Part shown: positions 340-6,182 of the stretch, one piece after another
How the letters are laid out: each line of letters starts with the position of its first letter
Position numbering within the stretch: position 1 is the stretch's first letter
Origin: Tolumonas auensis DSM 9187
GTDB taxonomy: Bacteria; Pseudomonadota; Gammaproteobacteria; Enterobacterales; Aeromonadaceae
Length of the DNA: 64,000 nt
NCBI RefSeq assembly: GCF_000023065.1
Contig: NC_012691.1
Location: forward strand, 1,966,501-2,030,500
Direction: 5' to 3'
Translations under genes and position numbers: made by a program
Notes under the pieces: generated by a model
Told to the model about the DNA's origin: nothing
Seen by the model: only the letters and a program-made list of their open reading frames with translations
The model's database searches: none

Positions 340-987
340 ATGAACTGGAATTTATCTCCGGCGGCGATTTTTGCCGCTTCCCCGCTGGTGCCGGTTATGG
401 TGATCGACGACCTGAATCAGGCTGTGCCGATGACTAAAGCACTGGCTGCCGGTGGCATCACCGTCTATGAAGTAACACTGCGCACCCCTGCCGCCCTTCA
501 GGCCATCAAAGCGATCCGGGAAGCCTTGCCGGATGCGCTGGTCGGTGCCGGTACGGTGCTGAATCCACAGCAATATGATGCCGCCGTTGAAGCGGGTGCG
601 CAGTTTGTGATCTCCCCCGGTTGTACATCTGAATTACTGGTACATGCCCGTCAGAACGCAGTGCCGTTAATTCCGGGTGTCGCCACGCCAAGTGACATTA
701 TGGCGGCATACAGCCTGGGTTATGATCATCTGAAATTTTTTCCGGCAGAAGCCAACGGCGGAGCACCGGCTTTAAAGGCTATTTCAGCACCATTACCACA
801 AATTCGGTTTTGTCCGACCGGCGGCATCAGCCCGAAAAACGTGCATGACTATCTGGCACTTTCTTGCGTGGGAACCGTGGGAGGATCGTGGATGTTACCG
901 GCCGATGCGCTGAAACAAGGCGACTGGCAACGTGTGACACAACTGTCGAAGGAAGCTGTTGAGCTGGTTAAATCACTACGTCGTTAA
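340..987 (+). CDS. eda: KDPG / 4-hydroxy-2-oxoglutarate aldolase
   Basis: This 215-aa cytosolic class I aldolase cleaves KDPG to pyruvate and glyceraldehyde 3-phosphate, completing the Entner-Doudoroff pathway. The Schiff-base lysine is K132 in LKFFPAE, and the general-base glutamate is E44 in YEVTLRTP. The phosphate-binding CPTGGISPKN and VGGSWMLP segments are present. Length and motif spacing match the E. coli enzyme (213 aa). The start is preceded by AAGGAAAGAGA, a good ribosome binding site. It forms an operon with edd. The LacI-type regulator now at 5151-6182 may be its old neighbour, separated by the inserted gene pair; that is an inference. Confidence 0.97.
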   Translation: MNWNLSPAAIFAASPLVPVMVIDDLNQAVPMTKALAAGGITVYEVTLRTPAALQAIKAIREALPDALVGAGTVLNPQQYDAAVEAGAQFVISPGCTSELLVHARQNAVPLIPGVATPSDIMAAYSLGYDHLKFFPAEANGGAPALKAISAPLPQIRFCPTGGISPKNVHDYLALSCVGTVGGSWMLPADALKQGDWQRVTQLSKEAVELVKSLRR

Positions 988-1279
988 TCATTTCGGTGAT
1001 AAGAACTGTAGGAGATGAATAAAGTTTCATACTGGAATGGCAGAAGTAGCAACAACTTGCTGCCATTTCTAACACGAAAATGCCCCGTTCGGTGTTACAG
1101 CTATCTAGAGGGGAATTCCGTATCACCTAGGTGCACAAATTTTAGTAATGTTCTCTGTGCCCCATCGCTTCGAATCAAGTGGAATTGCATCCATGTGATT
1201 CATACCTCGTTGATTTGACACGTCTCATGGCATGATTTAGCGTAAACGTAAATCCATTCAAATAGCATGGGAAATAGAA
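988..1279. other. Intergenic region between eda and the inserted pair
   Basis: This 292-base stretch shows no convincing gene. Base composition shifts here from the GC-richer edd-eda to the AT-rich inserted pair. A TTGACA hexamer at 1215-1220 could be the -35 element of a promoter for the downstream genes, but the matching -10 is poor, so the promoter is only a guess. A 67-codon open frame at 1015 has no recognisable protein features. Confidence 0.3.
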
Positions 1280-1627
1280 ATGTTTGATTATCTAACCTCA
1301 ACGGTTTTATCTGGTATGGTTTACGATGCAATTTGTGCGGGCGCAACCATTGGTGTCGATATGTTGAAATCAGTTCTTCAAGATTGGATCGTAGATGATG
1401 GTCAAATTTGCAAAATTGTAGAAAAAATGAAAGAGGCTGGCATTAACGAAGATTTGAATCCACAGGCAATTGAGCGAAAAATCAATCAGCATCCTGATTT
1501 AGTCCAATTGTTAGCGCAAATTCACCCATCGAGTACTGTGACGCAAACATCTCATATCGGAAATAATATCAACGCCGGAGCTGGCAGCAATGTTTCGGTT
1601 GGCGGTATCCATATTCATAAGAATTAA
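1280..1627 (+). CDS. GapS6a-like small protein, first gene of a putative two-gene anti-phage system
   Basis: This 115-aa protein has an N-terminal helical part (about 1-80) and a Gly/Asn-rich tail. Length, tail and the very large partner match what I recall of GapS6a, the first component of GMT-encoded anti-phage system 6; a profile search is needed to confirm that. Residues 93-115 align without gaps to residues 12-34 of the next protein, with 10 of 23 identical (Ile, Gly, Asn, Asn, Gly, Val, Gly, Ile, His, Asn). Shared short motifs at the C-terminus of one partner and the N-terminus of the other recall bacterial amyloid signalling motifs or a co-folding beta segment. The next gene begins 14 bases after the stop, so the two are almost certainly co-transcribed. 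The ribosome binding site (GGGAAATAG) is weak. Confidence 0.65.
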   Translation: MFDYLTSTVLSGMVYDAICAGATIGVDMLKSVLQDWIVDDGQICKIVEKMKEAGINEDLNPQAIERKINQHPDLVQLLAQIHPSSTVTQTSHIGNNINAGAGSNVSVGGIHIHKN

Positions 1628-1641
1628 GCGGTGATTTCGGC

Positions 1642-4600
1642 ATGACAGACGCTTCAAACAGTCAATATACAGCTATAGGATCAAATCTTAATTTGGCAGA
1701 AGGAGCCACCGCAACTGTTGGTGCCATAACCGTTCACTTTAATGACTTGACCTCACAACGGCTAGTAACCACAGCCAAAGAGATCCTTTTGGCTTTAACT
1801 CGCCATGAGTATAAAACTGCAGAAACTTATTTGGCTGTTTTAGAAGCAGTTAACACAACGAATGATGATTGTCGTGCGTTCATCCAGGTGCTTGAGTACA
1901 AATTCAAACTCAGCCAAGGAGAACCGCCCGCCATTAATACGAATTTATTTCTTCAATTGCTTCGTAGTCAATCATCGGATCCCGTAATAAAAGACATCGT
2001 AGAATCGATTTATATTCAATTTCTCCTGCAGCCATCTCCAGATGAAGCCAGAAGCCGATATGCAGAATCGCAATACAAAGATAGTTATTCCAAGGAAGTG
2101 TATTTTTCATTTCTTGCCAGCGAAAATGAACTTCAGCAAGAAATTGATGCCGGAATAAATGACCTCTTCGAACATGAATTATCCGCATTTGTTCGATGTG
2201 CTCTTCTGTGTCAAAAATTGGATTTAGCTAATGAGCTTTCAACAAGGTTGGTAAAACAGTTCCATAACACCAATAGTGAACTTCTGCATTTTTATATATC
2301 AACTTTAAAGCTGAATCAGGAAGTCCAAGGCCGCCATCTTTGGATATTGCCAGAGCAAATCAAGAAGGATTTTCTGAAGCAGCTAGAATATTGCTTATCG
2401 TTGATTGGTAAAAATAAAGATAAAAGGATCATATATATAGCGACGACGTTACTGGCCACCACAGGTTTTACCGATCCAGAACTCGCTGCATTTTGTAAGC
2501 AAAACATTTCTGAAGCGTCGAAGGTTTACCCAGAGATAGAAACAATTTTATCTGAACGCCAATACAATGAAAATGAAGTTACTGCATTAGATATTCTGGG
2601 TCAGAAAACGCTTAATGAAGATGATTTTATTACTCTGGGTACTGCTTTTTTTGCGGGCGATCTTAAAAGAAACAAGATTAAAAACTGGTGGGATGGCGGT
2701 GTTGAAATATCCTTAACGCAACCAAATGAAAGCGCCGCTAGGTTTATTGAGATCGAATTGAATGCGATCACATGCACCGATCGTGATTTTGAACAAAAAC
2801 AGCGAATATACAATTTATTAGAGATGTTTATTGCGACGGATATTGAACAGATCCATCTATTCAGTATTCCTTATCTTTATCGCCTTTGTGCTCAACTAAA
2901 CAGGCTAGGCGATCACGTCCATGTCATTAAATTATTAGAAACACTGATCCCGAATAACCCTTGGGCTTCACCGATTATTGATGAATATACTCATGCTTTG
3001 TTGGAGGCTGATCAATTAAGCAGGCTAGAAGAGTTACTGACAAGCATAAATGACGATGAAAAGAGCTTTGCATTATTAGTAGTCGAGATAAAAAGAGCCT
3101 ATCAACTAGGTGAAGAATCAGTATGCATTTCTAAGAATCGGTTTGCGTTAACAAAATACTCAAAGTCATGCTATTTGTGGTGGCTTTTGTTGAATAATTT
3201 ACATCATTTTCAGTCATCACAAGAAGAAATTGACTCTGTTGTAGATGATATTCCAAAGGATATATTAAAAAATTATAGTGCTGACGGATTAACTTTACTT
3301 AATGTCATATCACAATCCGACATAGCGCTTGCACAAACATTAATGCTTGAATGGTTTATTGATAATCCCACAGCAATGGCAAGAAGTATCACCAATTTAC
3401 TATTGGTGAATATTGGTCAAAAACAAGATTGGTCAGTTAAATATAAATCAGAAAGATGCGCTTCAGCAGTGGTTTATATGGTTGACGGTAAAACACAAAC
3501 CCGATTGCTGGTTGAAGATTGCGACACAAATGGATATTTAATAAACATTGATACCCAGTTAGGTAAATTACTCGACTCAACCGATGTTGGTGATTCATTT
3601 GAGCTAGGAATGAAAACCTACACCATCAAGGAAAAATTATCGCCCATTGTTGGTGCTTTTCGTATTTCTACAGTTATTCGAGAAGAAATAAATACGGGGA
3701 ATGATTGTTTTTACCAGTTATCTGTTCAAGAAAACAATATCGATGAACTATTGCGTTTTCTTGATAAAACAGACAAACAACCACAAATTGTAAATCCAGA
3801 AGTTGATGGTCAAAAAATCCCATTATTGCTAAGGTTAATACATTCTCATGGAAATGATTTACTACGTGGTTGTTATCATTATTTAACTGATGTCCATAGT
3901 AATAAATCATTGGGTTTATATAATGCCGGAGTGGGTTTTAATCAATCAGTTGTGCTTGATGTTTTATCCCTTACTTATTTATCGCTTACTGGATTCTGTC
4001 ACGGGCTGATCGCTGGCGGAAAGAGTTTATTTGTAACCCGAGAAACAAAAGCAATCGTCACAAGTTGGTTGCAGAGGGTCGGTAGTCCTGAATATTTTTC
4101 GCTGTCGAAGATAGGTGATGCTTATGTCAGGGCTACAGCAGATGACGTCCAAAATCATCCTTTTTATAATAACTTAGATATTCTGATCAATCATTGCTCA
4201 CTGTTGTCGCCTCGACAAATAGATATGCCCGAGCCAATCACCAGAGTAAGAGAGCATTTAGATATTTCGCACTATTCCTCCGTTAAGGCCTCAATCTCAC
4301 ATTCAATCCCGATTTTGTGTCTCGATCCGATGATGTGCACGTTATATAAAGCCGAAAAGTTAGATCTGATCAATACATATGAGTTTATGTTGGATGCAAG
4401 TAGATTGACGCCGAACAAAGAAAATCATGCCATTGAACTTTTCATTGAATGCTATTTGCCCGTTCCTATTTTGAATGGGAATATTTATTGGCTATGTACG
4501 CAGAAAAATCGCGGGCAATATTTAGCGTCAAAAATTATTTCACGGCCATCCGATAACACCGCTGATCCAGATACAACGTTAGCCTTTTTAACTCAATGTT

Positions 4601-4902
4601 CATGTTTTGCTATACATTCATTATTTGGCAGTTATTATCTTGACCTAGTGTATGCGTATGCAGAGTGGCAATATACAGTAAATATTGTATATGCATGTTG
4701 TGAATCAGCAATTAAAATCCTGAAAGGTGATACAAGAGAAGCCCGTCTTGCATTGTTTATCGTAAATGTTTATAACAATACAGTTCAAGAAAGCAACTTA
4801 TTAAACTTCATGTCGAATTCTTTTAACCTCTTTGCGCGTGGTCATTTCTTAAATGTCGAAAAAATAAATGATGAAATTAAGGTATTACAAGAACTAAACT
4901 GA
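1642..4902 (+). CDS. GapS6b-like large protein: helical repeats plus C-terminal PIN-like region
   Basis: This is a 1086-aa soluble protein with no signal peptide or membrane segment. Residues 12-34 repeat the Gly/Asn-rich motif found at the end of the preceding protein. About 35-560 are almost entirely amphipathic helix pairs of TPR-like character. About 590-690 are richer in beta strands. About 765-900 look like a PIN-type nuclease fold: a strand ending in Asp (VVLDVLSL, D773), then FVTRETKAIV, then a second strand ending in Asp (ILCLDPMM, D895). The order fits GapS6b, the putative effector of GMT-encoded anti-phage system 6, as I remember that family. RNA cleavage is an inference from the PIN-like pattern. 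The gene is AT-rich compared with edd-eda and the tonB operon on either side, which suggests horizontal transfer. Confidence 0.65.
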   Translation: MTDASNSQYTAIGSNLNLAEGATATVGAITVHFNDLTSQRLVTTAKEILLALTRHEYKTAETYLAVLEAVNTTNDDCRAFIQVLEYKFKLSQGEPPAINTNLFLQLLRSQSSDPVIKDIVESIYIQFLLQPSPDEARSRYAESQYKDSYSKEVYFSFLASENELQQEIDAGINDLFEHELSAFVRCALLCQKLDLANELSTRLVKQFHNTNSELLHFYISTLKLNQEVQGRHLWILPEQIKKDFLKQLEYCLSLIGKNKDKRIIYIATTLLATTGFTDPELAAFCKQNISEASKVYPEIETILSERQYNENEVTALDILGQKTLNEDDFITLGTAFFAGDLKRNKIKNWWDGGVEISLTQPNESAARFIEIELNAITCTDRDFEQKQRIYNLLEMFIATDIEQIHLFSIPYLYRLCAQLNRLGDHVHVIKLLETLIPNNPWASPIIDEYTHALLEADQLSRLEELLTSINDDEKSFALLVVEIKRAYQLGEESVCISKNRFALTKYSKSCYLWWLLLNNLHHFQSSQEEIDSVVDDIPKDILKNYSADGLTLLNVISQSDIALAQTLMLEWFIDNPTAMARSITNLLLVNIGQKQDWSVKYKSERCASAVVYMVDGKTQTRLLVEDCDTNGYLINIDTQLGKLLDSTDVGDSFELGMKTYTIKEKLSPIVGAFRISTVIREEINTGNDCFYQLSVQENNIDELLRFLDKTDKQPQIVNPEVDGQKIPLLLRLIHSHGNDLLRGCYHYLTDVHSNKSLGLYNAGVGFNQSVVLDVLSLTYLSLTGFCHGLIAGGKSLFVTRETKAIVTSWLQRVGSPEYFSLSKIGDAYVRATADDVQNHPFYNNLDILINHCSLLSPRQIDMPEPITRVREHLDISHYSSVKASISHSIPILCLDPMMCTLYKAEKLDLINTYEFMLDASRLTPNKENHAIELFIECYLPVPILNGNIYWLCTQKNRGQYLASKIISRPSDNTADPDTTLAFLTQCSCFAIHSLFGSYYLDLVYAYAEWQYTVNIVYACCESAIKILKGDTREARLALFIVNVYNNTVQESNLLNFMSNSFNLFARGHFLNVEKINDEIKVLQELN

Positions 4903-5112
4903 ATAAATAACGGTCTTAATGACAATTGATTGACGGCACCCTAAGATGGCTAAATGACCAAATTTTAGAAGATGCTCCCTGCGCAATCAAAACCATATCT
5001 AACCGCATCGCGGTTAGACTAGCCGTTATAAACAGAAACTACTTTTTATCTCAATAGTTTTAATTAAACTCTTCTTGTGAATTATTCCTGTAGGAGAGGA
5101 ATAAGAATACCT

Positions 5113-5137
5113 ATCTCCGGCTGAATTTGCCGGAGAT
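5113..5137 (-). terminator. Perfect hairpin after the LacI-type regulator
   Basis: A 9-bp perfect stem (ATCTCCGGC / GCCGGAGAT) with a 7-base loop lies 13 bases past the stop codon of the minus-strand regulator. No long T-run follows on that strand, so efficiency is uncertain. It may also stop reading from the inserted pair on the plus strand. Confidence 0.5.
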
Positions 5138-5150
5138 ATTTCAGCCCGTT

Positions 5151-6182
5151 TTATAACGTTGTCGAACCGCGAATAATCAGTTCACCGTTAAACAGATATT
5201 GTGCTGGCGGATGATCCGGCTTATCCAGTTTCTCCAGCAGACAGGTCACCGCTTTTCGCCCCATTTCCGACGTGGGTTGAGAAACCGAGGTGATACCTTT
5301 ACCGGCTAATGCCGCCCATTCCAGATTATCAAAGCTTAAGAATCCGATATCGGAACCCCAGTTCAGCCCCAGACGACTTAATGCCTGAGCAACCTGTAAC
5401 GTCAGCACCCCATTTGCCGCAATCACGGCCTTACGCATACCACGGTGACTGGCGCAAAACTCCGCAATCAGGCGTTCAATTTCATCGGGTGCCGGTAGCA
5501 CCACTTCATGACTTTCGCCCTTGATATGCGGATGCTGTTCCAGCATGTGATGGAAAGTGTGCAGACGCTCCTGACGCGCACTGATATAACGAACCGGTTC
5601 GGTCAGAAACAATAACGCTTCAAAGCCCTGTTCGATCAGGTGATTGGTGGCTAATTGCGCGGCCTGCGGGTTATCCAGCCCGACCATGTCACAGGGGAAA
5701 TCATCGATTTTTCGATCGAGTAAAACGAAGGGTAATGTGGTCGCTTTCAGCGCTTGCAGAAAATGCGCATTGATACCGGCAGAGTTGATGATCAGACCAT
5801 CCACCCGATAACCATTCAGCAGATTCAGGAACTCACATTCCAGCTCAATACTGTTGCGGGCATTACACACCACCGTCATAAAGCCCTGTTTGATCGACTC
5901 GGCTTCAACGCCTTTTAAAACCTCGACCGAAAACGGGTTACTGATATCGGCAATGATCAGCCCGATCAACCGGGTACGGCCATACTTCAGGCTACGCGCC
6001 ATCTGGTTGGGGCGGTATTCCAGTTCCTGGATCGCGTTTTCAATGCGCTGGCGCAGATCATCCGATAGCAGATGAAACTCGCCATTCAGATAACGCGAAA
6101 TACTGGTTTTTCCTGCCTTCGCTCTGGCCGCAACATCCCGAATGGTGGCATAAGAACGTTTACGGTTTGCTGGTTCGCTCAC
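5151..6182 (-). CDS. LacI-family transcriptional regulator (PtxS/KdgR-like)
   Basis: This 343-aa regulator has an N-terminal LacI helix-turn-helix (about 13-60: IRDVAARAKAGKTSISRYLNG) and the hinge PNQMARSLKYGRTRLIGLI. A periplasmic-binding-protein-like effector domain follows to the C-terminus. The recognition helix is slightly unusual, with AGKTSIS where most family members have VSxxTVS, a pattern also seen in PtxS-type 2-ketogluconate regulators. It lies near edd-eda and may control sugar-acid catabolism, but no operator was identified. The inserted pair at 1280-4902 separates it from eda. The effector is unknown. Confidence 0.85.
   Translation of the reverse strand: MSEPANRKRSYATIRDVAARAKAGKTSISRYLNGEFHLLSDDLRQRIENAIQELEYRPNQMARSLKYGRTRLIGLIIADISNPFSVEVLKGVEAESIKQGFMTVVCNARNSIELECEFLNLLNGYRVDGLIINSAGINAHFLQALKATTLPFVLLDRKIDDFPCDMVGLDNPQAAQLATNHLIEQGFEALLFLTEPVRYISARQERLHTFHHMLEQHPHIKGESHEVVLPAPDEIERLIAEFCASHRGMRKAVIAANGVLTLQVAQALSRLGLNWGSDIGFLSFDNLEWAALAGKGITSVSQPTSEMGRKAVTCLLEKLDKPDHPPAQYLFNGELIIRGSTTL

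Follow-up and report, generated by a model that had tools for sequence, protein, structure and literature searches.

Why do two adjacent bacterial genes encode the same short motif, once at the end of the first protein and once at the start of the second? The question is raised by a gene pair in a 64,000-nucleotide stretch of the Tolumonas auensis DSM 9187 genome (NC_012691.1, positions 1,966,501 to 2,030,500; this whole stretch is called the window, and coordinates given without a locus name refer to it). An earlier note on this DNA had likened the two proteins to GapS6a and GapS6b. That resemblance is now an assignment, since both proteins exceed the curated cut-offs of the corresponding NCBIfam families (GapS6a, NF047935, 114.5 bits against a cut-off of 90; GapS6b, NF047936, 1160.5 bits against 850). 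The gene for GapS6a (1280–1627, + strand) lies directly upstream of that for GapS6b (1642–4902, + strand), separated from it by a 14-nt gap and in the order typical of the GapS6 family; the lengths first given for the products, 115 and 1086 residues, and the coordinates are exact. The family is reportedly the GAPS6a/GAPS6b anti-phage system of Mahata et al. (2024). In what follows we argue that the pair is probably, with confidence somewhat above even, a split TPR-GreA/B-C-PIN system (TPR, tetratricopeptide repeat), in which the shared motif would serve as a homotypic assembly element, GapS6b as the sensor and core, and GapS6a as the effector.

The smaller protein is predicted to be a HetE-N domain followed by the terminal motif. 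It matches Pfam HetE-N (PF20701, 4.9e-36) and, over residues 2–84, PDB entry 9h9v, named 'Babybass' (phmmer, 2e-11), whose listed chains of 82–85 residues resemble the HetE-N part and do not include the motif. The single-sequence model of GapS6a was poor (predicted local distance difference test, pLDDT, 59.1).

The motif itself had been described as an ungapped alignment of GapS6a residues 93–115 (1556–1624) with GapS6b residues 12–34 (1675–1743) at 10 of 23 identities, and this is exactly what the sequences contain. Over their full lengths the two proteins share no better ungapped 23-residue match, and the gapless similarity stretches to residues 88–115 of GapS6a (1541–1624, + strand) and 7–34 of GapS6b (1660–1743, + strand). 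By itself the match is moderately unusual and amounts to modest evidence: shuffling the whole of GapS6a gave at least 10 identities in 10 of 1000 trials, and shuffling both terminal segments gave none in 5000. The Smith-Waterman score of the facing ends, 60, was reached by none of 2000 shuffles, and among the 396 open reading frame ends of the window the head of GapS6b was the best match to the GapS6a tail (60; next 34). An origin by duplication of DNA was ruled out, as only 35 of the 69 motif-encoding nucleotides are identical between the genes, six of the ten identical residues are encoded by different codons, and a search for a direct repeat at 1540–1760 found none. In the AlphaFold2 model of GapS6b alone, residues 1–34 have pLDDT values below 50; because such values would be expected of a templated motif as well as of an idle tail, the model does not decide whether the segments are disordered tails.

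Across the GapS6 family, the tail/head similarity was assessed in 32 pairs, comprising the window, three genomes found with a GapS6b hidden Markov model (HMM), nine plasmids found with the GapS6b protein, one plasmid found with GapS6a, and 18 of 31 genome-scan loci. All 32 exceeded the 99th percentile of shuffled heads (a Smith-Waterman score of 34, tail against head), the weakest being L040 (35) and L026 (40), so that the motif is missing from one partner in none of them and is a general feature of these systems rather than a peculiarity of the window. Thirty of the 32 are GapS6b-type, and all 27 long GapS6b-type proteins scanned match NF047936 at E ≤ 0.01. The 12 relatives retrieved with full-length GapS6b or its HMM, rather than with the motif, score 48–77 and are free of motif selection, except that the query contains the head. 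Loci L022–L040 come from a scan with two patterns, one of which was the motif; there the GapS6a motif is partly selected and the GapS6b heads are unselected. Two loci were left unscored, L021, whose partner is cut short by the end of the record, and L035, whose partner has a broken frame; the head motif is visible in both. L009/L106 was scored separately (51), and plasmid matches H9 and H10, equal to H11 in coverage and identity, were left out. When 200 adjacent same-strand gene pairs from the window and the loci were compared, taking mechanical open reading frames rather than annotations as genes, 31 scored at least 34 and all 31 were motif systems, the next pair scoring 31.

The common form of the motif is QxHxGxGDNVxGxK. 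A GDA(V/F)xGDK version occurs in L017 and L019, and the window departs from the usual GapS6 motif by a longer, two-part variant that it has in common with a Pseudoalteromonas plasmid pair (L011). Two GapS6b heads bear two motif copies in tandem (L017, 2813–2970; L106, 2053–2160), an arrangement that we take to recall the repeats of HET-s. The collected pairs come mostly from gammaproteobacteria.

We found that tails and heads match their own partners better than those of other pairs, the mean score being 57.4 for own partners and 44.7 for mismatched ones, with none of 20000 re-pairings reaching the own-partner mean. With the relatedness of both protein bodies removed, the partial correlation over 30 pairs was 0.59 (0 of 5000 permutations), and control segments gave at most 0.14 (26 segments of GapS6b) and 0.12 (six of GapS6a). 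The value of 0.59 depends on six divergent pairs, namely the window, L011, L017, L019, L040 and L008.

Sequence profiles and an AlphaFold2 model identify the larger protein as a predicted TPR-GreA/B-C-PIN protein. The model, built from 16 sequences (mean pLDDT 78.2), leaves residues 1–34 unordered and continues with helical repeats at residues 38–592 (1753–3417, + strand), a beta domain at about 606–666 (3457–3639, + strand), a mixed alpha/beta region at about 769–910 and a helical C-terminal region at about 905–1085 (4354–4896, + strand). The helical-repeat array of the earlier note thus recurs in the model; moreover, the best 50 of 968 Foldseek matches are helical-repeat proteins, none of them named PIN or Gre, and a few relatives show TPR matches in Pfam. 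The beta domain resembles the C-terminal domains of GreA and GreB proteins from related genomes (hhalign, E 5e-6 at a probability of 86, with crossed controls at 0.1 and 0.5), and hmmscan up to E 10 gave no Pfam GreA_GreB match. No nucleoside triphosphatase (NTPase) family of the NACHT/NB-ARC kind, as found in NOD-like receptors (NLRs), appeared among the Pfam matches up to E 10.

Residues 771–903 (3952–4350, + strand) match the PIN-TPR-GreABC family PF20698 (1.1e-20, 74.7 bits, cut-off 27.8), as do 20 of 27 GapS6b proteins at E ≤ 0.01. A profile comparison with 12 ordinary PIN sequences found no match (hhalign probability 0.3), so that the case for a candidate nuclease is built on PF20698 and on the conserved acidic residues. 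Among the 27 aligned sequences, from which the short large proteins of L016 (851 residues), L023 (550) and L037 (594) were left out, D773 is present in all and D895 in 26, D874 in 18, and position 801 is a glutamate in 16; the window protein has all four classical acids (D773, E801, D874 and D895). The PIN-like region that the earlier note had placed at the C-terminus around D773 and D895 is therefore right as to family and residues and wrong as to position, with some 180 residues lying beyond it. A group of plasmid-borne GapS6b proteins from Pantoea, Rahnella and Rouxiella (L012–L015, L018) keeps D773 and D895 and has no acid at position 874, which may leave its PIN domain weakened or inactive.

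GapS6, the TPR-GreA/B-C-PIN core and the bacterial amyloid signal sequences called BASS are each already known. Kaur et al. (2021; PMC8195603), writing on conflict systems, describe the TPR-GreA/B-C-PIN core as carrying exchangeable N-terminal effectors, one of which is shared with fungal HetE proteins and presumably corresponds to Pfam HetE-N. The PF20698 PIN domain, the GreA/B-C-like domain and the helical repeats of these systems are also found in GapS6b. Unlike them, however, the window encodes its effector-like HetE-N domain in a separate gene, with a short motif in the place of a fused N-terminal effector.

This difference could be followed among relatives. Among 398 genomes drawn from across the phylum, the PF20698 PIN domain occurred in 10, as eight fused proteins and two split pairs with the motif (the window and G891). 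The fused relatives are single proteins of 1288–1459 residues (some starts are perhaps too long), four of which have restriction-endonuclease Pfam matches at the N-terminus, one of them over the cut-off, and all eight show, by eye, a D...QxK pattern near the start. In none of the eight was the motif found (best score against the 32 GapS6a tails, 21–32), and none had a motif-bearing gene upstream (upstream end against head, at most 26). Since all eight fused relatives lack both motif and partner, and since the motif is reused with a NACHT-type NLR, as described below, the motif most likely stands in for the covalent link between effector and core, as far as these sequences allow one to judge.

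The same motif recurs in other systems, for which Pfam analysis covered five (L041, L043, L045, L048 and L049) of the 12 weaker loci of the genome scan. In L041 (5833–8837), a HetE-N protein with the motif (27.8 bits, cut-off 25) lies beside a NACHT protein with the motif (27.4 bits, cut-off 26.7). In L048 (5764–8558), a motif-bearing HetE-N-like protein (23.8 bits, just below the cut-off) adjoins a motif-bearing TPR protein with weak STAND-type ATPase matches, and in L045 the motif heads an NB-ARC-TPR protein. Furthermore, GapS6a-type proteins stand beside motif-headed proteins of about 925 residues in L020 (5004–8098), L022 (6001–9119) and L021 (5001–6065); these partners are possibly another sensor class, and that of L020 matched nothing in Pfam, NCBIfam or PADLOC. 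In these other systems, effector-like domains occupy the side of the C-terminal motif and receptor-like domains that of the N-terminal motif. Two Bacteroidota loci with related end motifs offer side observations: L043 (5425–8777) pairs a TIR-like protein (a weak match, 17.8 against 28) with a TPR protein, and L049 (5611–9063), where the motif was seen by eye, pairs an EAD11 protein with one of the NB-ARC-TPR kind.

The layout has a precedent. BASS pairs are described as adjacent genes with the motif at the C-terminus of the effector and the N-terminus of the NLR (PMC7889193), and the accounts consulted cover BASS1–10 and Bell/NLR pairs (PMC7889193, PMC8086366). In the window, too, the genes are neighbours, and a small helical protein carries the motif at its C-terminal end, a large receptor-like one at its N-terminal end; the earlier note's comparison with bacterial amyloid signalling pairs is supported by the same motif on facing ends. 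Unlike BASS receptors, GapS6b has no matched NTPase (NLR) domain and, unlike BASS effectors, GapS6a has a HetE-N rather than a Bell domain. The name Babybass, and the name alone, suggests that the depositors of 9h9v link their protein to BASS, and others may already know part of the motif finding, given that entry. A fungal amyloid motif, GDQN, is given as NxxxGxQYxxxGxGDQNxVSxxxxQxN on paired effector and NLR ends (PMC12261475); the paired ends and the GxGD(Q)N core are alike, the fungal partners are an NLR and SesA, and we take the likeness as no more than a resemblance. Because of the BASS layout and the similar fungal pattern, an amyloid would be the most likely form of the motif assembly.

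In the scheme that we favour, GapS6b, with its helical repeats, its PIN domain and a GreA/B-C domain that would be able to dock on RNA polymerase, would act as sensor and core, and would cluster upon sensing phage-altered transcription or another phage cue. Its motifs, exposed in the cluster, would then template the tails of GapS6a into a shared cross-beta assembly, the C-terminal motif of the one protein and the N-terminal motif of the other working as a single homotypic assembly element. This assembly would concentrate the HetE-N domains of GapS6a, a putative small helical effector, leading to cell shutdown or death, and the PIN domain may cut RNA in parallel. The homotypic assembly, its amyloid nature, the direction of the signal, the sensing of RNA polymerase and the lethal act of HetE-N are all steps that we infer. 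As to direction, the published NLR amyloid pairs have the C-terminal motif on the effector, and the fused relatives put an effector-like domain at the position of GapS6a, which makes GapS6a more likely an effector than a sensor. The earlier note had it the other way round, with the small protein sensing or nucleating and the large one becoming an active RNase; its identification of the genes and PIN family, its shared motif and its comparison with amyloid pairs hold, and its direction is disfavoured by the BASS order and the fused relatives.

An unlikely reading, though one worth weighing, is docking without amyloid, in which the GapS6a tail attaches to GapS6b through strand pairing or inside a TPR groove, a place that the GapS6b head occupies as a look-alike until triggered. 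TPR arrays often bind peptides, and the two segments are short, poorly ordered (for GapS6a, in a poor single-sequence model) and rich in glycine and asparagine. However, the motif pair also occurs with NACHT and NB-ARC-TPR partners and with an unassigned one of about 925 residues, which favours motif-to-motif contact over one pocket, and the heads of L017 and L106 carry two motif copies. That GapS6a senses or nucleates and assembly switches on the PIN RNase of GapS6b as the killer is, in our estimation, quite improbable: the PF20698 match, the near-invariant D773 and D895 and the four acids of the window protein speak for it, but some members of the family lack part of the acid set (E801 and D874, above), the fused relatives bear a nuclease-like domain besides PIN where GapS6a would plug in, and the described BASS pairs have their effector on the side of the C-terminal motif. 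Finally, a functionless similarity due to chance or to duplicated DNA can be given almost no credence, for although an equally good 23-mer arose in 10 of 1000 whole-protein shuffles, the family-wide occurrence of matching ends rules out chance, and the differing codons and the lack of a DNA repeat speak against duplication.

Several points weigh against the split-system interpretation with its homotypic assembly. Co-variation of the motif copies within pairs holds between subtypes (partial correlation 0.59) and fails inside the common type, where 24 pairs gave 0.14 (261 of 3000 permutations) and thus no detectable fine co-variation beyond relatedness, and the 20 without near-duplicates gave 0.09 (625 of 3000). 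We accordingly rejected co-variation inside the common type as proof of specificity, as it vanishes after relatedness is removed; the motif matching is one of subtypes. The own partner ranked first in only nine of the 32 pairs. The motif is likened to BASS by its layout, and BASS are known chiefly from multicellular actinobacteria, cyanobacteria and archaea, whereas the GapS6 hosts here are mostly gammaproteobacteria. Among the relatives compared, there was no covalent fusion of HetE-N to the TPR-GreA/B-C-PIN core, and GapS6b, with a PIN domain of its own, could be the executor.

The genomic setting of the pair fits a role in defence. Its G+C content is 37%, compared with 55 and 51% for the flanking genes, and it occupies the interval between eda and gntR (988–5150), which within the genus is empty (about 60–75 nt) in G002 and G003 and is filled in G005 by a Hachiman pair (HamA, 3.6e-104; HamB, E = 0) and in G006 and G009 by other inserts, about 1.6 and 10 kb long. 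This interval is a variable insertion site and defence hot spot, in keeping with such a role. A 17-nt direct repeat (1006–1022 and 5088–5104, both + strand) flanks the inserted pair. The insert start (1000–1095) is common to unlike inserts beside eda in G005, G006, G009 and G010 (83–94% identity over 51–108 bases), and in G005 the end sequence is present as an inverted repeat. From its sequence, the insert resembles a mobile cassette whose ends are conserved; the copy in the window shows no evident recombinase gene. Unlike GapS6 accompanied by the gamma-mobile-trio, the interval holds only the pair and one open reading frame of 67 residues (+ strand), with no gamma-mobile-trio gene seen; on the Photobacterium plasmid L017, the pair adjoins a gene annotated gmtX. 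Other searches were negative: PADLOC 2023 matched neither protein, the E. coli genomes searched held no near match to the pair, a phage sequence search gave no match, scans with GapS6b alone and with GapS6a found no relatives among 22 genome stretches and 4 viral-contig stretches, respectively, and Rfam gave no family at 900–5300.

Taken more broadly, we put at about even the chance that GapS6 is an amyloid signalosome without an NLR, in which a portable, self-templating motif couples HetE-N to interchangeable sensors, namely the NACHT-type NLR, STAND-like TPR proteins, TPR-GreA/B-C-PIN cores and the unassigned protein of about 925 residues, and replaces the covalent fusion of the sister systems. 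Among the matches listed, a literature search, with subscription papers mostly outside its scope, gave no paper joining GapS6 with amyloid motifs, and searches for GAPS6a and for babybass, of the same scope, gave none. A review asks whether NLR-independent signalling amyloids occur in bacterial or fungal pathways (PMC7889193). GapS6 offers a concrete candidate, which occurs in culturable and mostly gammaproteobacterial hosts and belongs to a family whose name refers to phage defence. In addition, the comparison of split with fused relatives proposes a way in which effectors may be swapped in conflict systems, with a short homotypic motif taking the place of gene fusion.

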